The notes below the pieces were generated by a model, which saw nothing but the letters and a program-made list of their open reading frames with translations, had not been told where the DNA came from and did not search any database. From a bacterium (GTDB lineage Bacteria > Spirochaetota > UBA4802 > UBA5550), in assembly GCA_024224995.1 (NCBI GenBank), contig JAAENB010000776.1, positions 1 through 9,316 on the forward strand: a stretch of 9,316 nt of DNA, read 5' to 3'. This document shows positions 574-9,218 of the stretch, in pieces. The number at the start of each line of letters is the position of its first letter. The first letter of the stretch is position 1. Made by a program: the position numbers and the translations under genes.

Positions 574-1305
574 TTGATAAATATTCTCATATCACTTCCT
601 ATGGCTGCTGCTCCGGCATTATTGTTGGTATGGTATTATTACAGGCAGGATAGAGAGAAACCGGAGCCAAAAGGGCTTGTAATAAAGATATTTTTACTGG
701 GTATTGTTAGTATTGTTCCGGCAATGCTTCTGGAAATGTTAGTCCAGTTCCTGGGCAGTACCCTGGACAATTTTCCTGTGCTGGTTAATTTATTCAGGGC
801 TTTTATTGTTGCCGGTTTATGTGAAGAGCTGGTAAAGCTGCTGGTGGTAAAACAGTTTGTTTATAACAAAATTGAGTTCGATGAAGTTATGGACGGAATT
901 GTTTATACGATTGTAGCCAGCCTGGGATTTGCCTGTTTTGAAAACGTGCTGTTTGTTATTAATGGCGGATTGCCGGTAGCTATTATGCGGTCGTTTACTG
1001 CCGTTCCCATGCATGCCCTGGCATCGGGGATGATGGGATTTTATATTGGCAAAGCGAAATTTGCCGGTACAAAAAAGGAAGAAATATCATTCATGATGAG
1101 GGGGCTTATTATTGCCGTACTGATACATGGTTTATACGACTTTGTCCTTTTTATTGAACCGTTCCTGGCATCTGTTTTTAGCGAAGAGATCGGGGTTTTT
1201 GTTTCTTTAACGATTTTTCCATTAATGATATTTGTTTTTTTTATTTTGAAAGGAAAGATTAAGTCCGCTATTACTGAAGATATACGTGAAGGTAGGACGG
1301 AGTAG
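574..1305 (+). CDS. PrsW-family intramembrane protease
   Basis: This 243-residue, highly hydrophobic protein has the layout of PrsW (the CPBP-like clan of glutamic membrane proteases), which cuts membrane anti-sigma factors in Bacillus. The N-terminus has a membrane segment followed by WYYYRQDREKPEP, a typical PrsW opening. Conserved motifs are CEELVK (E84, E85, K88), FEN (F122, E123), MHA (H147) and HGLYD (H185, D189). These supply the two glutamates and two histidines expected of the active site. TTG at 574 is taken as start. GGGGTGA at 552-558 is the nearest Shine-Dalgarno-like sequence but sits 15 nt away. An ATT at 565 has better spacing, and ATG 601 would cut into the first helix. It leads a plus-strand cluster, 37 bp before the PilZ gene. 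No sigma or anti-sigma gene is visible, so the substrate is unknown. Confidence 0.87.
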   Translation: MINILISLPMAAAPALLLVWYYYRQDREKPEPKGLVIKIFLLGIVSIVPAMLLEMLVQFLGSTLDNFPVLVNLFRAFIVAGLCEELVKLLVVKQFVYNKIEFDEVMDGIVYTIVASLGFACFENVLFVINGGLPVAIMRSFTAVPMHALASGMMGFYIGKAKFAGTKKEEISFMMRGLIIAVLIHGLYDFVLFIEPFLASVFSEEIGVFVSLTIFPLMIFVFFILKGKIKSAITEDIREGRTE

Positions 1306-1342
1306 CGGAATATTTGAATAAGTCCTTATTGGGACTGGGCTG

Positions 1343-1672
1343 GTGATTATGAAGGCAGATGAGAGAAGAAGAGATGAACGAGTTGATTTAAATAAGGATT
1401 ATTATTACCTGCCCGGTGATAGTAATCATGAACATGAATGCGTTGTTAAGAATATTTCTATTACCGGGGCCTGTATTACCGCGCATGATAAATTGAACGC
1501 GGATGAGATCCTCTTTTTGAATATTCGTGCCTCAAAAGAAATTGTTCTTAAAGCAAAGGTTGTGTGGAGGACTGACGCTGAATATGGCCTGCTCTTTCTT
1601 CTTGACACAAGCGAAGAATTTGAAAATATTAGTTTTATTATGAATAATTATGCCATTAATATTAATAAATAA
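1343..1672 (+). CDS. Small PilZ domain protein, probable c-di-GMP receptor
   Basis: The product is 109 residues and essentially one PilZ domain. It carries both signature elements of c-di-GMP binding: RxxxR (R9-R13 within ERRRDER) near the N-terminus, and NxSxxG (N37, S39, G42 within KNISITGACI). It then follows the beta-strand pattern of the family, including LKAKVVWR and a YGLLFL strand. No output domain is attached, so it probably acts by binding a partner protein. GTG 1343 and ATG 1349 are both possible starts; the motifs are unaffected. It is 37 bp after the PrsW-like gene and 24 bp before the AAA+ gene, so co-transcription is likely. A c-di-GMP link to the membrane protease or ATPase next door is inferred from position only. 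Confidence 0.87.
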   Translation: MIMKADERRRDERVDLNKDYYYLPGDSNHEHECVVKNISITGACITAHDKLNADEILFLNIRASKEIVLKAKVVWRTDAEYGLLFLLDTSEEFENISFIMNNYAININK

Positions 1673-1696
1673 GAAATAATACCGGGAGTTCCTGTT

Positions 1697-3721
1697 ATGC
1701 CTTCAACTAAAGAAATCGAAAGCCAATTAAAAGAGATTTATAATTGGCTCCTGGTATCGAATAAAAAGTTTATACTCAATGAACTGCAATCAATCCTGGG
1801 TAAAAATGAAACAATCGAAGATATCCTGGAAGGATCATTTAATGGGATCTCATCTCGAACAAAAGGAACCGAACCTGCCGGGATCGTATGCCTTACCAAC
1901 AGGCAGCTGGTGTTTCTCTCAACGGAAAAATCAAAACGGGGCCATGAGCTTGTGACGTTTGATGAAATAGATGATATTGAATATGAAAAAACCTATTCTT
2001 CCGCGAAAGTATCAATTCACCGGAGCGGGGGAAAAGAAACTGTTGTCTTTAAATCATTTGTTACGGAAGCCCCGGTTAAGCGGTTTATCGACCGTATTAC
2101 GGAGAAGGCCGGGAGCGGCGTTATTTATCAAAAAGACAGCTCTACATCAATGATCGATGATATTACCAATCTTTTTGCCAGCCGTTCTTCGCTTCCCGGT
2201 TTCCTGGACAAGATCAAAAATGCTGCTGATGATCTTATGGACAACAATATGAGAATCTCGGATAATGTATCAAATGAGTTGTCGGGCGGAATGGCGGGAA
2301 ATATCCCCGGAGCGGGAGAGGATGTTATCAATTTGAATTTTTTATTCCTTGAAGCAAAGAAGATCTATACGGGGCTGCATGGGTATCTCAATTTTAACAA
2401 TGATCTGCGGTTTAAAGAGATGCTGGTAAATGATTTTATTGTGCTTTCTTCTCTCTGTAGTATTGCCGATGGCGCCCTGCTGGACAATGAATTGCTCTTT
2501 ATGTCAATGGTCCTTATGCCGCTTAATCCCGACAACGCTCCTGAAATAGAAGAGCAGGCAAAAAGATTATTCCGCTTTGATCTTTTTCCGCCGGATCAAA
2601 AAGAAAATATCCTCAATTTCTGGAACAGGATTTCCCGGCATATTAAAGACTCAAAAATTGAAATTGACGGGAATATGCTAAAATCTCTTGAATATCTCAG
2701 GGGATACGACAAAGAACACGGGAGCGCTCATTTCGACAAACTTGCTTCGCTCTTCCATACCTACGCGGAATGCTTAATGAAAGCCGACGGCCGGATTGAT
2801 AAAAAAGAAGAAGAAAGACTAAAACAAATTGGAGTTCTTATTTATTCGAAAGAAGGAGCTCCCGGAGTCTCTGTAGACCCAGCTGAAGAAGAAGAAACCC
2901 TTGAAGAGGTTATGGTAAAGATCAATAAATTGATTGGCATGCAAAATATCAAAGATGAAATTAACACCTTTATCAATTTAATTAAAGTCCAAAAAGAACG
3001 AAAAGACCGGGGATTGCCCACAACCCCTTTATCGCTGCATGCTGTTTTTTACGGCCCTCCCGGTACCGGGAAGACTACTATCGCGCGCCTTCTTGGCAAG
3101 GTTTACAAATGCCTGGGCTTGCTGGAAAAAGGACAGCTCGTGGAAACAGACCGTGCCGGCCTGGTGGCCGGTTATGTTGGGCAGACTGCTATTAAGGTCG
3201 ATGAAATTGTTCAAAAATCCCTTGACGGGATCTTATTTATTGACGAAGCCTATTCCTTAAGCCCGCCCGACGGAGGAAAAGACTTTGGCCAGGAAGCCAT
3301 TGACGCCATCTTAAAAAGAATGGAAGATTACCGGGAGCGCTTTGTTGTCATTGTGGCGGGCTATCCCGATGAAATGAAAAAATTTATTTATTCAAACCCC
3401 GGCCTTAAGTCCCGTTTTAGCAGGTATTTTTATTTTGATCATTATGAACCCGAGGAGTTAATACAAATATTCGATATTTTTAGCAACAACGTCTCTTTTG
3501 TCGTTACACCCGAAGCCAGGGACAAATTGCTTTCTCTTCTTGGGGAGTTTTATGTTACCCGGGACAAAACGTTCGGGAACGGCAGACTTGTTCGAAATAT
3601 TTTTGAAAAAATCGTTGAAAGACAGGCTAACAGGATCGCGGGAATCACTCCCCTGACCGATGAGATTTTGTGCTCCATTACGGAAGAGGATGTTCCGGCT
3701 AAGGATGATATGGTGCAGTAG
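1697..3721 (+). CDS. CbxX/SpoVK-type AAA+ ATPase with PH-like and TerB-like N-terminal domains
   Basis: This 674-residue, three-part protein starts at ATG 1697 with GGGAG 8 nt upstream. Residues about 20-135 resemble a bacterial PH (YokE-like) domain, with strands such as GIVCLTNRQLVFLS and ELVTFDEIDDIEY. Residues about 230-385 resemble a TerB-like helical domain, with two acidic ADG motifs, SIADGALLDNE (255-265) and KADGRIDKKEE (362-372). Residues about 400-665 are a CbxX/CfqX (SpoVK, EccA-like) AAA+ module. It has Walker A GPPGTGKT (453-460), GYVGQT pore-loop region (492-497), Walker B ILFIDEA (512-518), AGYPDEM (554-560), arginine finger in NPGLKSRF (R573) and sensor 2 FGNGR (626-630). All ATPase residues are intact. 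Family members form hexameric remodelling machines; the client here is unknown. The N-terminal PH part may place it at the membrane. It sits third in a probable operon with the PrsW-like and PilZ genes. Confidence 0.9.
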   Translation: MPSTKEIESQLKEIYNWLLVSNKKFILNELQSILGKNETIEDILEGSFNGISSRTKGTEPAGIVCLTNRQLVFLSTEKSKRGHELVTFDEIDDIEYEKTYSSAKVSIHRSGGKETVVFKSFVTEAPVKRFIDRITEKAGSGVIYQKDSSTSMIDDITNLFASRSSLPGFLDKIKNAADDLMDNNMRISDNVSNELSGGMAGNIPGAGEDVINLNFLFLEAKKIYTGLHGYLNFNNDLRFKEMLVNDFIVLSSLCSIADGALLDNELLFMSMVLMPLNPDNAPEIEEQAKRLFRFDLFPPDQKENILNFWNRISRHIKDSKIEIDGNMLKSLEYLRGYDKEHGSAHFDKLASLFHTYAECLMKADGRIDKKEEERLKQIGVLIYSKEGAPGVSVDPAEEEETLEEVMVKINKLIGMQNIKDEINTFINLIKVQKERKDRGLPTTPLSLHAVFYGPPGTGKTTIARLLGKVYKCLGLLEKGQLVETDRAGLVAGYVGQTAIKVDEIVQKSLDGILFIDEAYSLSPPDGGKDFGQEAIDAILKRMEDYRERFVVIVAGYPDEMKKFIYSNPGLKSRFSRYFYFDHYEPEELIQIFDIFSNNVSFVVTPEARDKLLSLLGEFYVTRDKTFGNGRLVRNIFEKIVERQANRIAGITPLTDEILCSITEEDVPAKDDMVQ

Positions 3722-3808
3722 GGGAGGGAAGGTTATCGGTTATCGGTGGCCTTGCGGGCCGGGTGATCGGTGGAGAGGGAGGGCACGCCGTGCCCGTACC
3801 GATGGATA
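3722..3808. other. Repetitive GC-rich spacer with short hairpins
   Basis: The gap between the AAA+ stop and the chosen archaemetzincin start contains GGTTATC repeated in tandem (3731-3744), a second ATCGGTGG copy, a GGCC-loop-GGCC hairpin (3749-3761) and a perfect GGGCAC-GCC-GTGCCC hairpin (3781-3795). No T run follows either stem. It reads as non-coding, which argues against a GTG start at 3770 for the next gene. Confidence 0.5.
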
Positions 3809-4438
3809 ATGATGAGGAAAATTTTGAGAAAAAAAAATAAGATTTATATTATATTAATATCGGCATTATTGCTTTCTTCTTTGTTGGCTGCTGCTGAGAG
3901 TAAGGTTGTTGTGGCGGTGCAGCCTTTTGGTAAGATTAATAAAAAGATTGTTGCTGTTGTTGCTGCGGGCATTGAAAAAGTTTATACTGTTGAAGTGGTT
4001 ATTTTGCCTCGGAAGAAATTGCCTGCCAATGCTTATTATCCGCCGAGAAAGCGGTATCGCGCCGGGAAGATCCTTGATTATTTGTCCGGTATTGTAAAGC
4101 CGGAACAAACAAAGATTGTAGGACTCACAAAACGGGATATTTCCACGACTAAAGGAAAGTTTTATGACTGGGGTATATTTGGTCTCGGCACTATTGATAA
4201 TAAACCCTGTGTTGTCTCTACCTTCAGGCTTCGCAGGGGCAGGGTTTCCGAAGCCTTTTTCAGAGGACGGCTTATTAAAGTAGTTAACCATGAACTGGGG
4301 CATACTTTTGGGATACCTCATTGTCCGTCAAAGGGCTGTCTTATGCAGGATGCCAGGGGGACCATTAAAACCGTTGATGCCGAATCGGGCGCGTTTTGTG
4401 AAACATGCAAGGAACACCTGAAAGGTTTGTTGCGGTAG
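3809..4438 (+). CDS. Secreted archaemetzincin-type zinc metalloprotease
   Basis: The core motif fits the archaemetzincin signature HExxHxxGx3Cx4CxMx17CxxC exactly. HELGHTFGIPHC carries zinc-binding H161, H165 and H171, catalytic E162 and C172. C177 and M179 follow, then 17 residues, then CETC (C197, C200), a likely second zinc site. ATG 3809 is preferred (209 residues; ATG 3812 is equivalent). It begins MMRKILRKKNKIY followed by a hydrophobic run ending in LLAAAES, a clear signal peptide. A longer frame from GTG 3770 would prefix 13 residues encoded by the repetitive spacer and hide the signal. The ribosome binding site is weak. Archaemetzincins are usually cytosolic, so export is odd. The next gene starts 9 bp downstream, implying co-expression. 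Family call is firm; substrate unknown. Confidence 0.9.
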   Translation: MMRKILRKKNKIYIILISALLLSSLLAAAESKVVVAVQPFGKINKKIVAVVAAGIEKVYTVEVVILPRKKLPANAYYPPRKRYRAGKILDYLSGIVKPEQTKIVGLTKRDISTTKGKFYDWGIFGLGTIDNKPCVVSTFRLRRGRVSEAFFRGRLIKVVNHELGHTFGIPHCPSKGCLMQDARGTIKTVDAESGAFCETCKEHLKGLLR

Positions 4439-4447
4439 TGTGATAAA

Positions 4448-5419
4448 ATGATAATACCGGATCACATTCTACTGGGTACTGCTGTTGCCCAGGTTTCCGC
4501 TTCCAAAGACAGGGCCGCGTGGCTTTCTATTCTTTTTTTGTCGATTTTTCCTGATGCCGATATTATTCTCGGACTGCCCGGTACTGCTGCCTATTTAAAT
4601 AATCACCGTATTTATACGCATAATATTTTTTTTGGTATTATTGTTAGCTTGCTGTTAACCATTCTTTTTTTCCGAAAAAGCAGGTTTTCGTTTCCCCGGT
4701 TTTTCGCGCTTTGCATGAGCGCTTTCCTGGGGCATGTTTTTCTTGATTGTTTAAATGCCTTTGGGACTAAAGTTTTTTTCCCGCTTTCTCATATACGGGT
4801 TGCTTTTTCTTTCCTGTTTGAGTTCGATATTATTTTTTCACTTCTTTTGTATGGCGCTGTTGGGATAATTTTTTTTATGAAAGAGCCGCCTCTCTTCCGG
4901 AAGCTGGGGCTCCTTTCTTTGTGCCTGGTATACGCCTTAATCGTTGTTCCCTTTTTTAAAAATAAACAAATTGACCGGTACGACAGTCAATTCCGGAAAG
5001 CTTCCGGGCATTCCGGGTATATTTCCCGGGAGTGTTATCCCTGGTTTTGGCAGCACTGGAGAGCTGTGTATGAACTGGACAAGCAATATTGCCTCATTGA
5101 AAAAAATATTGATAATACCTATAGTAAAAGATCCGATAGTAATTTCGATTTTGAAAGCACTCCGGATACAACAGACAAGAACAAAGAATACCGGGTTGAA
5201 TTTTATGACAAATATCCTCCCTCCTATGATGAGATCCGTGAGCTTGAGGTTGTTAAAGCCTACCATCGATATACCGACTCCGCCGCGTTCAGGGAAAAGA
5301 ATAAAAAAATAGAGATGTTCAGCATGCGATACCCTGAAACAGTCTATAAAGTAACCCTGGAACGAGTTAACGGTTCCTGGAAATTCACCGACATGACCGG
5401 GGCTTCCGCCCGGGATTAA
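4448..5419 (+). CDS. Membrane-bound metal-dependent hydrolase, YdjM/YbcI (DUF457) family
   Basis: This 323-residue inner-membrane protein opens MIIPDHILLG and has the family's dispersed metal-ligand-like residues: H6, D36 and D38 in FPDADI, H53/H58 in HRIYTHN, H96 and D100 in GHVFLDCLNAFG. Roughly five hydrophobic segments fall at about 24-42, 59-76, 83-105, 121-143 and 152-170. A soluble C-terminal part of about 150 residues follows, with YPWFWQHW (around 198-205), as in longer family members. ATG 4448 is the first start, 9 bp after the archaemetzincin stop. No strong Shine-Dalgarno is visible, so translational coupling is likely. Biochemical function in the family is poorly known; hydrolase is inferred from the conserved His/Asp set. 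Its stop is 1 bp from the convergent DAHP synthase remnant. Confidence 0.86.
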   Translation: MIIPDHILLGTAVAQVSASKDRAAWLSILFLSIFPDADIILGLPGTAAYLNNHRIYTHNIFFGIIVSLLLTILFFRKSRFSFPRFFALCMSAFLGHVFLDCLNAFGTKVFFPLSHIRVAFSFLFEFDIIFSLLLYGAVGIIFFMKEPPLFRKLGLLSLCLVYALIVVPFFKNKQIDRYDSQFRKASGHSGYISRECYPWFWQHWRAVYELDKQYCLIEKNIDNTYSKRSDSNFDFESTPDTTDKNKEYRVEFYDKYPPSYDEIRELEVVKAYHRYTDSAAFREKNKKIEMFSMRYPETVYKVTLERVNGSWKFTDMTGASARD

Positions 5420-5766: not shown

Positions 5767-5856
5767 AATATTACAATATCCACAAAAGCTACAAACGAGC
5801 TGTGCTATAAAAATAGTACCAAAAGTAAAAATAGCTTTTGTGGATGTTGTAATATT
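5767..5856. repeat. Long inverted repeat, 25-bp arms around a 40-nt loop
   Basis: The arm 5767-5791 matches the reverse complement of 5832-5856 at 24 of 25 positions; the one difference would be a G-U pair in the minus-strand RNA (an A-C mismatch on the plus strand). Key arm sequence is ATCCACAAAAGCTA. A smaller stem, GTGCTAT (5802-5808) with ATAGTAC (5812-5818), lies inside the loop. No ORF is present. It could be a small palindromic mobile element or a leader structure; it lies directly upstream of the two terminators in the leftward direction. Confidence 0.65.
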
Positions 5857-6043: not shown

Positions 6044-6148
6044 GGGAATAAGTCCCGGCTTTCCGGAACAGGAGACACGGAAGTCGACGCCCCTGTGTAA
6101 TACACGATGTATTATCACAGGGGTGGAGGAAAGCCGGGACTTATTCCC
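6044..6148. repeat. Perfect 21-bp inverted repeat with nested second stem
   Basis: 6044-6064 is the exact reverse complement of 6128-6148 (GGGAATAAGTCCC at the outer edge). Inside, CCCCTGTG (6090-6097) pairs with CACAGGGG (6116-6123), continuing through TAATAC/GTATTA with a single bulged base. The outer GGGAAT also belongs to the terminal repeat of the surrounding element, so two folds compete. Confidence 0.8.
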
Positions 6149-6206: not shown

Positions 6207-6207
6207 G

Positions 6208-6252
6208 AGGGATGGGGGTTGAGGGGGCGAAGCCCCCTCAACCCCCATCCCT
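6208..6252. repeat. Perfect 21-bp palindrome with GAA loop
   Basis: 6208-6228 is the exact reverse complement of 6232-6252, leaving a 3-nt loop. The arms are almost pure purine or pyrimidine (GATGGGGGTTGAGGGGG). Such a stem can extrude as a cruciform or block polymerase, and is a possible bidirectional transcription barrier although it has no T run. Confidence 0.85.
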
Positions 6253-6255
6253 CCT

Positions 6256-6367: not shown

Positions 6368-6395
6368 TTGACCTTTAGAAAAATTAGGGTATTAT
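6368..6395 (+). promoter_or_regulatory. Sigma70-type promoter for the vault-protein gene
   Basis: TTGACC (6368-6373) and TATTAT (6390-6395) are each 5 of 6 to consensus with a 16-bp spacer. Transcription would start near 6402, giving a leader of about 30 nt to ATG 6432. That leaves only some 9 nt before the alternative ATG 6411. Confidence 0.6.
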
Positions 6396-6416: not shown

Positions 6417-6423
6417 AAGGAGG
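6417..6423 (+). promoter_or_regulatory. Shine-Dalgarno that fixes the vault-protein start
   Basis: AAGGAGG ends 8 nt before ATG 6432, ideal spacing. The upstream in-frame ATG 6411 has no such site and would place the Shine-Dalgarno inside the coding region. Confidence 0.8.
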
Positions 6424-6431
6424 GCTCAGGT

Positions 6432-9065
6432 ATGCCGGAAGAAACCAGACGAGAAAGAGATCTTATTTTAGCTCCAAATGAATATGCCTTTATTCTTGAT
6501 GAAACCAAGGGGAATGTTATTAATTATGTAGGCCCTCATAAAACAAGCCTCGCCAATACCGATCAACCTGTGGCGTTTAACCGCAAATCGAAACGGTTTG
6601 AGCGTTGTTCCCTTGAAGTAGCCACGAGCATGTTCGCCATTGCTCCTGAAGGGTGGTATATTGTTTTAAAGAATCCCGCGCAGGATAACAAACATCCCCG
6701 GGAAGGAACCGCCAACAGCCTCACCGAATTGAACGTGGGACGAAAGGTGAATATTCCCGGTCCTGTTTCTTTCGCGCCGTGGCCGGGACAAATGGTGCGG
6801 GTAATAAAAGGACATCACCTGCGTTCCAATCAATACCTTATTGTTCGAGTATATGATGATGAAGCTGCCAGGGCTAACTGGGGTAAAGCGGTTATTAAAC
6901 CGCAAACTATCGGCTCTGTTGACAGCGCCATTGAACCGGGAGAACCCGGTACGGGAACCGAACCGGCACCCGCGCCCGGCCCTACCGGAACGACCGGGGC
7001 GGCAGATCCCGCAAGCCCGGAAAAGCCGGCCACTGCTGTTGAGGTTAAATCCGATGCCGAGATCCCGGACCTGACCCTGGGAAAACTCCTGGTTATTAAG
7101 GGGACCGATGTTTCGTTTTACATTCCTCCCACGGGAATTGAAGTTGTTCCCGACAGGAACGGGGAGTATGTACTCAATGCTGTTGTGCTGGAACGCCTGG
7201 AGTATTGTATTTTATTAAGTGAAGACGGTAATAAGCGCTATATCAAAGGCCCGGCCGTGGTCTTTCCGCTGCCCATTGAAGTTTTTGTTATGGAAAACGG
7301 AGCCCGTAAATTTAAGGCCATTGAATTGAATGAGATTAGCGGGCTGTATATAAAGGTGATTGCGCCGTACGAGGAAGGCAGCACGAAATACCGGGTTGGC
7401 GATGAGCTGTTCATCACCGGAAAAGACCAGATGATCTATTTCCCCCGTCCCGAACATGCCATTGTCCGCTACGGAGACCGGGAAGTCAATTATGCTGTTG
7501 CCATACCCGCGGGAGAGGCCCGGTATATTTTAAATCGTCTTTCCGGACAGATTACCCTGCAAAAAGGCCCCAGCATGTTTTTACCCGATCCCCGGAAAGA
7601 GGTCATTGTTCGCCGGGTTCTGCCGCCCCGGATCGTGGATTTGTGGTTTCCCGGGAACCAGGAAGCGATGGAATATAACAGGCAGCTTATGGATATTATG
7701 ACCGAGGAAAAGGAAGTTATTGCCGACGGGGAAATCCGGAAACATTTCGCGAAGCAGAAAAAGGGGCAGGCGCAGGAAATGGATATGGACGACCTGCAGG
7801 AATTTGAAGAATTACAGGCACAGGAAGAGATTGAAGGAGCGGAAGGGGTTTTCGGCGACCAGTTTACCCGGAAACAGTCATTTACTGCTCCGAGAACTGT
7901 CACCCTCGATACCAAGTATGAAGGCGCGGTTTCCATTAATGTGTGGACCGGTTACGCGGTGATGGTTATTAGTAAAACCGGGGACCGTAAGGTTATTGCC
8001 GGGCCCAAAACATACCTGCTGGAATATGATGAAACCCTTGAAACAATAGAATTTTCCACCGGTACTCCAAAGCGGGACGATAAATTGGTAAAGACCGTTT
8101 ATTTGCGGGTGCTGCATAATAAGGTTTCGGATATTGTCTCTGCCGAAACAAAAGATCTGTGTGAAGTGAATGTTACTCTTTCGTACCGCGTAAACCTGGA
8201 AGGAGAACCGGAGAAATGGTTCGACGTGGAGAATTATGTTAAATTTATAACAGACCATATGCGATCTATGCTCCGGCATGCTATCCGGGGATACGGCGTT
8301 GAAGTGTTTTATGCCGATGCCATCTCAATTATCCGGGATACTATATTAGGCACCCAGGGTGCAGAGGGGAAACGGCCCGGTCGTATTTTTGAAGAAAATG
8401 GCATGCGTATTTATGATGTGGAAGTTCTTGATGTTACTATTGGGGATGATATTATTGAAGACCTGTTAATTGACGCGCAGCATAATACCGTGGGTAAGAC
8501 CCTGGAGATAGCCGCGGAAAAGCGGAACCTGGAATTTACGCTGGAAAAGGAAAACATCAAACAGAAGGTTGCGGAGGCTGAGGCCGTTACCCTGCAAACA
8601 ACATTAACCCTGGATATAGAAGAGGTCCAAAAGCGTTTGGAACTGAACCTGGCCGGCATTAAATCTGAAATTGAAGCGGAGAAGAAAAAACTCACGGCCA
8701 AATGGACAGAGCAGGAACTGCTCGAAAAGATCAGCGGTTCGGAGCTGCTTCGCCAAAAAGCCCGGTCCGATTTTGAGCTTTCCGTTTCGCAGCAGCAGAT
8801 TGTGCAGCGGATTGAAGAGCTGAAGGCCGAAGTTGAAGCAGTGGTAAATAAAGCTCAGGCTATTTCGCCCCAGCTTATTGCCGCATTGCAGGCATTTTCC
8901 GACCGGTCCTTAGCTGAAAGTATGGCCGAAAGCATGGCTCCGCTCGCTATTCTTGGAGGCAAAAGCGTTGCCGATGTTTTTTCACAGCTCCTGAAAGGAA
9001 CGGTTCTGGAAAAAGTTATTAGTACAACTGCCGGGCAGGTAGAGAAGGTTGTTGATAAGAAGTAA
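6432..9065 (+). CDS. Bacterial major vault protein (MVP) homologue
   Basis: The 877-residue product follows the MVP plan and length (animal MVP about 860-890), judged against MVP recalled from memory. Residues 6-158 and 207-403 hold MVP-type beta repeats: GPHKT (34-38), YIVLKNPA (76-83), IYFPRPEHAIV (335-345), GPSMFLPD (379-386). A Pro/Gly/Ala linker (165-201) and a charged linker (about 423-478) interrupt them. Residues 483-688 match the SPFH-like shoulder: GPKTYLLEYDE (524-534), STGTPKR (542-548; MVP SAGRPKR), DIVSAETKD (MVP DVITIETAD), KWFDVENYV (MVP KLFSVPDFV) and FEENG (653-657; MVP FPQNG). Residues 689-808 are a cap-type coiled coil. Residues 809-877, with AISPQLI and ADVFSQLL, match the cap ring (MVP ALGPGTI and INLFSTAF). 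No signal peptide or membrane segment is seen, so it should be cytoplasmic. In eukaryotes MVP builds the hollow vault shell. A plain SPFH protein would lack the repeats and cap ring. Confidence 0.88.
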   Translation: MPEETRRERDLILAPNEYAFILDETKGNVINYVGPHKTSLANTDQPVAFNRKSKRFERCSLEVATSMFAIAPEGWYIVLKNPAQDNKHPREGTANSLTELNVGRKVNIPGPVSFAPWPGQMVRVIKGHHLRSNQYLIVRVYDDEAARANWGKAVIKPQTIGSVDSAIEPGEPGTGTEPAPAPGPTGTTGAADPASPEKPATAVEVKSDAEIPDLTLGKLLVIKGTDVSFYIPPTGIEVVPDRNGEYVLNAVVLERLEYCILLSEDGNKRYIKGPAVVFPLPIEVFVMENGARKFKAIELNEISGLYIKVIAPYEEGSTKYRVGDELFITGKDQMIYFPRPEHAIVRYGDREVNYAVAIPAGEARYILNRLSGQITLQKGPSMFLPDPRKEVIVRRVLPPRIVDLWFPGNQEAMEYNRQLMDIMTEEKEVIADGEIRKHFAKQKKGQAQEMDMDDLQEFEELQAQEEIEGAEGVFGDQFTRKQSFTAPRTVTLDTKYEGAVSINVWTGYAVMVISKTGDRKVIAGPKTYLLEYDETLETIEFSTGTPKRDDKLVKTVYLRVLHNKVSDIVSAETKDLCEVNVTLSYRVNLEGEPEKWFDVENYVKFITDHMRSMLRHAIRGYGVEVFYADAISIIRDTILGTQGAEGKRPGRIFEENGMRIYDVEVLDVTIGDDIIEDLLIDAQHNTVGKTLEIAAEKRNLEFTLEKENIKQKVAEAEAVTLQTTLTLDIEEVQKRLELNLAGIKSEIEAEKKKLTAKWTEQELLEKISGSELLRQKARSDFELSVSQQQIVQRIEELKAEVEAVVNKAQAISPQLIAALQAFSDRSLAESMAESMAPLAILGGKSVADVFSQLLKGTVLEKVISTTAGQVEKVVDKK

Positions 9066-9075
9066 AGGGCTCTCA

Positions 9076-9218
9076 AGAAACTAAAATTTGCTTGTGCGCG
9101 GGCTTGAAAGTATGGTCTCTTTGGATTGCTGCGGAACTCCCTTCGGTCAAACAGTCCTCACAACCCAAAGAGACCATACTTTCAAGCCGGATGCAGCTCG
9201 CAATATTATTTAGTTTCT
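9076..9218. mobile_element. Palindromic element with 10-bp terminal repeats and a perfect 24-bp stem
   Basis: AGAAACTAAA (9076-9085) and TTTAGTTTCT (9209-9218) are exact inverted repeats. Inside, 9101-9124 is the exact reverse complement of 9165-9188, around a 40-nt loop containing CGGAACTCCCTTCGGTCAAA. There is no ORF. It starts 10 bp after the vault-protein stop and a T-rich TATTTTTTCC (9223-9232) follows, so it may also end that transcript. It looks like a non-autonomous palindromic mobile element. Confidence 0.6.

Follow-up and report, generated by a model that had tools for sequence, protein, structure and literature searches.

A divergent, seven-repeat relative of the major vault protein in a spirochaete contig, with relatives across many bacteria and very large phages

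Introduction

In the vault particle of animal cells, a giant barrel, half vaults of 39-fold symmetry join to form a 78-mer, whose partners are TEP1, PARP4 and vault RNA. Whether bacteria possess a protein of the same kind, and what it would build there, is the question raised by a gene at positions 6432 to 9065 of a 9,316-nucleotide stretch of DNA from a member of the Spirochaetota (contig JAAENB010000776.1), hereafter the window. An initial annotation had described this gene as a bacterial homologue of the major vault protein (MVP) with its own promoter.

First observed in 1986, vaults are still described as having no known function (PMC7618893). In the available parts of the literature they are said to be absent from prokaryotes (PMC9778704, PMC11855390), putative bacterial MVP homologues from Daly 2013 are reported with their prokaryotic origin called unresolved (PMC7916137), and a predicted vault protein is named in Borgs (PMC12660748). 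Additionally, database entries already name some relatives of the window protein 'major vault protein'.

Results

Homology to the major vault protein

The window protein is a member of the vault family (MVP superfamily), with a homology that goes far beyond chance. Pfam recognizes its MVP_shoulder domain (PF11978) at an E-value of 2.5e-25 (89.2 bits against a cut-off of 25), and the single sequence finds MVPs in the PDB by phmmer at 6.9e-11. A profile of 44 close relatives matches solved MVPs at 1.9e-22 and one of 33 diverse bacterial relatives, from which canonical MVPs are absent, at 1.3e-49 (3e-11 for the repeat stretch). In line with this, profile-profile comparison of the 33-row alignment with 25 cyanobacterial MVPs of canonical type is colinear over 697 columns (1.2e-42), and hhalign recovers both the N-terminal 500 residues alone (99.1%, 1.1e-18) and the C-terminal part (99.7%, 4.4e-26). 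At E-values up to 0.01, MVP_shoulder and Vault_3 are found in all 33 members of the profile, Band_7 in 12, and Vault and Vault_4 in 5 each. Stronger scores obtained with a 109-row alignment are not relied on, since they are inflated by its nine canonical rows.

A first structure model, built on 44 close homologues, has a pLDDT (predicted local distance difference test) of 51.5 with an unfolded N-terminus, while a second one, built on the 109-row alignment, reaches 81. The second model was compared by Foldseek. A best match to flotillin or stomatin over the whole length, with no repeats, would by the initial annotation have overturned the vault call, and this is not what was found: vault chains are the best matches (9e-34), and flotillin follows at 5.1e-7 after 16 first rows of MVPs. 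The cap helix comes directly after the shoulder in both models (residues 673-808/809). Counted on model strands, the repeats are seven and not nine, and about two are missing in the profile alignment; in the linker that precedes the last repeat, 43 and 18 residues have nothing to match them in a cyanobacterial MVP. In a scan for hydrophobic segments none was found, the maximum 19-residue hydropathy being 1.18, and no membrane anchor of this hydrophobic kind precedes the shoulder.

Compared with canonical MVP (solved vaults 4v60, 9r86 and 9bw5), the window protein has the same order of repeats, shoulder and cap helix, a similar length and homology over nearly its full length, but it differs in having seven repeats rather than nine, an insert in repeat 3 and a helical linker before the last repeat. 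Its waist residues are altered as well, and whereas the canonical vault has partners, the window protein is without a known one. The call of a bacterial MVP homologue thus stands as to the family, although the protein is a shortened, divergent relative and not a canonical MVP. As for the domain order given in the initial annotation, repeats, shoulder and long cap helix do follow one another (hhalign, model), and all five quoted motifs (STGTPKR, ETKD, WFDVENYV, FEENG and AISPQLI) are present, but the cap ring is weakly supported. The features are collected in Table 1.

Table 1. Positions of the vault-family gene, its upstream sites and the parts of its product in the window, and of the genes found in phage records
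Feature	Position	Strand	Residues	Remarks
MVP-like protein gene	6432..9065	+	877 aa	97.9 kDa, pI 5.15; ATG at 6432, stop ends 9065
Promoter-like site TTGACC-16-TATTAT	6368..6395	+		10/12 consensus positions; weak, frequency as in shuffles
Shine-Dalgarno AAGGAGGG	6417..6424	+		7 nt 5' of ATG; read from sequence
Vault-type repeat 1	6456..6611	+	9-60	model strands pLDDT over 90; aligned to canonical R1
KTSLANTD	6540..6563	+	37-44	aligned to animal MVP residues 34-41 (HMMER), in R1 at the animal waist
Repeat 2	6624..6782	+	65-117	profile alignment, model
Repeat 3	6792..7151	+	121-240	Gly/Pro/Ala-rich insert ~162-204, pLDDT under 50, variable in family
Repeat 4	7164..7322	+	245-297	sequence-aligned to canonical R6
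Repeat 5	7323..7484	+	298-351	sequence-aligned to canonical R7
Repeat 6	7485..7619	+	352-396	sequence-aligned to canonical R8
Linker, helical then disordered	7626..7901	+	399-490	model
Repeat 7	7914..8066	+	495-545	aligned to canonical R9
MVP shoulder (SPFH-type) domain	8115..8447	+	562-672	PF11978 2.5e-25
Cap helix, single long helix	8448..8858	+	673-809	models
C-terminal segment at cap-ring position	8871..9032	+	814-867	colinear in hhalign, mostly pLDDT under 65
Vault-family genes of INPHARED phages	L204:17992-20421, L205:17995-20478			tblastn

Within the close family (44 rows), the longest invariant run is KTSLANTD, in the part of repeat 1 that aligns with the animal waist; the next longest is 4, and a run of 8 is reached in 3 of 2000 shuffles.

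Occurrence in bacteria

The initial annotation had called bacterial MVP homologues rare, which the searches do not bear out. Of the 7997 candidates with the most shared words that were scored in the protein search, 6522 pass the threshold of 1e-3, with identities of at least 59% among the 120 matches listed. In species genomes, 131 stretches fit the search patterns, 105 encode a relative and 80 were kept; the 78 of these placed in a tree carry 12 phylum labels, as taken from submitters' titles, the largest being Bacteroidota (32) and Myxococcota (15), and a further 195 relatives are encoded in viral contigs. Rows with the same phylum label group together in the tree (12 changes, the least possible being 11), and the window protein is placed beside Desulfococcaceae rows, at an identity of 68% or less, from which one would guess at a relative of these as its source. 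Saprospira grandis, Nannocystis exedens, Enhygromyxa salina and Thermoflexibacter ruber are among the named carriers.

PF11978 is present in 30 of 30 re-searched carriers and in none of 14 control genomes. Over the Pfam cut-off, and in sets that each include their own seed genome, it occurs in 11 of 140 genomes of Myxococcota (some with divergent or paralogue forms), 4 of 244 of Cyanobacteriota (one of canonical type), 1 of 296 of Bacteroidota, which is the seed genome itself, and 32 of 231 of Cytophagales. The family is thus patchy in bacteria, and not rare overall. A search of plasmids gave no match. Gene neighbours are not conserved across the 80 bacterial loci beyond small clades, such as one downstream gene common to four Eremiobacterota-type loci, and the largest other cluster occurs in nine loci at scattered positions; in this survey the MVP reading frame was recovered in 73 of the 80 by picking open reading frames (ORFs), the other 7 being probably lost to longer overlapping ones.

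The canonical-type MVPs of cyanobacteria (L103:6171-8816 on the minus strand; P0121-P0240), often named 'colicin uptake protein', are likewise bacterial and of the same superfamily, but P0121 and its relatives differ from the window protein in carrying five Pfam vault domains and scoring 981 bits to human MVP, and one of them is about 22% identical to it (162 of 744 aligned positions). Other forms were also encountered. Genomes of Nannocystis and other Myxococcota (L093, L101, L102, L097-L099) encode another MVP-like protein besides, a divergent paralogue about 900-960 aa long whose identity to the window protein is 29-31% (L093 lies outside that alignment), and a Sericytochromatia genome encodes a 473-aa protein of about half length with an MVP shoulder (L100:2561-3982, minus strand).

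Occurrence in phages and viral contigs

Relatives are also encoded by very large phages. Searched by tblastn, INPHARED yielded three records. Two are 735,411 bases long and carry the gene at identical coordinates, the third has 462,018 bases, and the products are 41-42% identical to the window protein over 98%. In IMG/VR, whose fragments may include misassigned bacterial DNA, 262 stretches fit the search patterns, 195 encode a relative and 80 were kept (L124-L203), 15 of them on contigs over 200 kb. Ten viral relatives were scanned, with MVP_shoulder over its cut-off in all ten and Vault_3 in nine. In the main text of a paper that describes a 735-kb genome (PMC7162821), to judge by length probably that of the two records, as in that of a jumbo-phage review (PMC13282480), the word 'vault' is absent.

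Twenty viral neighbours were compared with PHROGs: nine are without a family, six match only families that are unknown or ATPases, and five have named matches, namely two major head proteins, a DNA polymerase, an RNA-binding protein and an NAD synthetase. On contig L190 (395 kb) a major head protein (270 bits) lies 7 kb from the vault gene, and L126 carries a homologue of it (1.3e-74); a phage-type DNA polymerase lies near the vault gene of L144, and the major head protein match on L139 is a fragment (26.7 bits). Among six neighbours scanned from L204 and L205, no phage hallmark was found. On L184 (323 kb), an RNA-binding phrog_850 protein and the NAD synthetase are found near the vault gene (16903-22466). 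Animal vault shoulders are described as binding NAD and ADP-ribose in the available text of PMC13174449.

In a combined tree, 28 of the 29 bacterial rows, the window protein included, form one supported clade without viral rows. All 40 viral rows fall outside this main clade, in several deep clades, one paired with L061, the remaining bacterial row. Eight unlabelled database rows are also outside, three beside viral rows; as some of them are named as bacterial metagenome-assembled genomes, the bacteria are not a single clade. A deep split separates the bacterial family from the cyanobacterial MVPs in our trees, which contained no eukaryotic sequence.

Candidate partners

Of 80 carriers, 31 have a TROVE match at an E-value of at most 0.001 (11 of 30 in a first set and 20 of 50 further ones), which in 29 of them exceeds the cut-off; of 30 non-carriers, none has one. 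Within Myxococcota they occur in 3 of 11 PF11978-positive genomes as against 6 of 129 others, and within Cytophagales in 12 of 32 as against 41 of 199, one genome with a match below the cut-off being counted among the 199. Combined, the two clades give a Mantel-Haenszel odds ratio (OR) of 2.8 (p 0.006), in statistics that ignore kinship and with several genomes shared between sets. DUF4062, the NADase domain of TEP1, occurs in 6 of 30 carriers and 3 of 30 non-carriers (p 0.47), and PARP over the cut-off in 5 of 30 and 1 of 30. All these matches are to single domains, which need not be those of TEP1 or PARP4. Since DUF4062 and PARP lean the same way, the TROVE excess may be an effect of large genomes; carriers have Ro60-type TROVE genes modestly more often, for which larger genomes and kinship may account.

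The viral loci often hold families of RNA ligases, kinases, phosphoesterases and RNA-binding DUF2828 proteins. Across 82 loci, some of them near copies, an RNA ligase family is found in 10 and a second one in 6, a family with an HD-kinase as its longest member in 13, and the DUF2828 family in 7. In the 50 longest viral records DUF2828 occurs in 13, and in 5 of these it is within 6 kb of the vault gene (1.85 expected, P 0.025), a limit chosen after the distances had been seen and in phages that are related to each other; the linkage is weak. Compared with the PDB, the phage DUF2828 family gave a chance row only. Its match to TROVE proteins is limited to the vWA part (hhalign, 1.4e-9), and a kinship to Ro60 is therefore not established. 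TROVE proteins are mentioned in Borgs in the available text of PMC9605863.

The locus in the window

As the initial annotation had it, the 877-aa ORF is unbroken across 6432..9065, without frameshift, and is preceded by the Shine-Dalgarno sequence AAGGAGGG at 6417-6424. The 'clean promoter' did not hold up: TTGACC-16-TATTAT-type sites number 6 where 5.1 are expected from shuffles, and the promoter-like site 5' of the gene is not distinguishable from chance. The remark that no vault partner is in the window agrees with the Pfam scan of seven window ORFs, none of which has a TEP1 or VPARP domain.

The gene has a G+C content of 48.9% (6432-9062), as against 35-44% in five other measured window genes. 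Long, near-perfect inverted repeats lie in the spacers that flank it (6207-6253, 6044-6148, 5767-5856 and 9101-9188), with arms of 21-28 nt that match at 96-100%; these are perhaps mobile palindromic elements or terminators. The neighbours at 574-5419 encode a PrsW-type protease, a PilZ protein, a bPH-AAA (CbbX/SpoVK-like) protein, an archaemetzincin (M54) and YdjM, and none of these families recurs near the 80 bacterial relatives. Rfam gave nothing at the gathering threshold on the 9.3-kb window, and at lax E-values all its matches stayed under the cut-off, most of them being to microRNA families on a hairpin; the NCBIfam scan gave no match for the MVP-like protein.

Discussion

We consider it likely that the window protein, which belongs to the MVP superfamily, is soluble and self-assembles into a half barrel, probably closing as a shortened vault-like cage. 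Repeats, shoulder and cap helix would pack side to side into a thin-walled half barrel, and repeat 1 would meet repeat 1 at the waist, which would probably give a closed, two-ended cage; with seven repeats instead of nine, the particle would be shorter than the animal vault. The most likely role of such a cage would be to enclose, in the cytoplasm, a cargo whose genes lie elsewhere in the genome; RNA-protein complexes are the best current guess for this cargo.

Several observations weigh against a cage of this kind. No particle has been seen. Vault_3 reaches 1.2e-5 in the window protein (residues 515-558), which misses its Pfam cut-off, and no other vault-repeat model is matched. The cap-ring segment is of low confidence in the second model, and 9 of the 109 alignment rows behind that model are canonical MVPs, which may have guided it. 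The whole-chain TM-scores (template modelling scores) of Foldseek are low, at 0.23-0.44 of the query against full vault chains, with a root-mean-square deviation near 80, which a different bend of the long chain probably explains. With respect to the waist, the segment is unremarkable in the 33-row alignment, where the longest invariant run is 2 and lies elsewhere, and KTSL[AS] is kept in 7 of 78 viral proteins. In human MVP, the contact residues of R1 where half vaults meet are given as I36, Q38, D39, N40 and R42 in the available text of PMC13347060; their animal counterparts align with S39, A41, N42, T43 and Q45 in the window protein, so that a waist contact would use other residues.

This change of the waist residues speaks for an open half vault, ring or sheet, in which the side contacts would be retained and closure lost, leaving a cup instead of a cage. 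Half vaults of animal MVP do exist (PMC13347060, available text), but within the close family no invariant run is longer than the one aligned with the waist, and we judge an open form to be unlikely; KTSLANTD may form part of a waist. Less likely again is a membrane scaffold of flotillin or stomatin type, which would sit on the inner membrane as a half cage and carry the repeats as an additional stalk. Flotillin, stomatin, prohibitin and HflK/C share with the window protein an SPFH-type shoulder followed by a long helix, but they are membrane-bound and without vault repeats (PMC13100048, in its available parts), whereas the window protein has no hydrophobic segment and no Band_7 match at E-values up to 0.1 in Pfam, and seven MVP-type repeats precede its shoulder where, according to the same source, canonical SPFH proteins carry their membrane motif.

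A role as the shell of an RNA-handling particle, in which a Ro60-type (TROVE) protein or one of RNA repair would be the partner, much as TEP1 is in the animal vault, is compatible with the closed cage that we favour. The excess of TROVE among carriers, with the combined OR given above, and the RNA ligase, HD-kinase and DUF2828 families of viral loci point in this direction; yet 49 of 80 carriers are without a TROVE match, several of the matches in the others are weak as well as partial, large complex genomes may account for the excess as PARP leans the same way with kinship uncorrected, and the DUF2828 distance limit was post hoc in related phages. We regard such a shell as a minor possibility. 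A recent transfer of an MVP gene from a eukaryote to a bacterium, for which the existence of canonical-type MVPs in cyanobacteria could be cited, is highly improbable: the window protein is about 22% identical to the canonical type, and it belongs to a diverse bacterial family that clusters by phylum label and is deeply split from the cyanobacterial MVPs, in trees without eukaryotic sequences.

Given the earlier bacterial and Borg reports and the database labels, the seven-repeat family is not categorically new. The 'predicted vault protein' of Borg archaeal elements is also vault-like and on a giant prokaryotic element, and is known here by description (PMC12660748). Our literature search, which covered best-ranked matches with subscription literature mostly outside, met no recognized study of the seven-repeat bacterial family and no report of vault-family genes in the 462- and 735-kb phage genomes or in large viral contigs. 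The presence of vault genes in those genomes and in many large viral contigs is a lead. More tentatively, and with considerable doubt, one may propose that shortened vaults which close are made by bacteria as well as by huge phages and that the vault is a prokaryotic invention older than the eukaryotes. If this were true, large phages would have a novel kind of compartment inside the cell in the vaults that they encode, which are diverse and branch deeply in the tree and might hold RNA-repair or Ro60-like complexes.

With relatives in so many bacteria, and also in very large phages, vault biology would gain simple study systems, and as named strains are among the carriers of the large bacterial family with seven repeats, its function can be tested by gene deletion.
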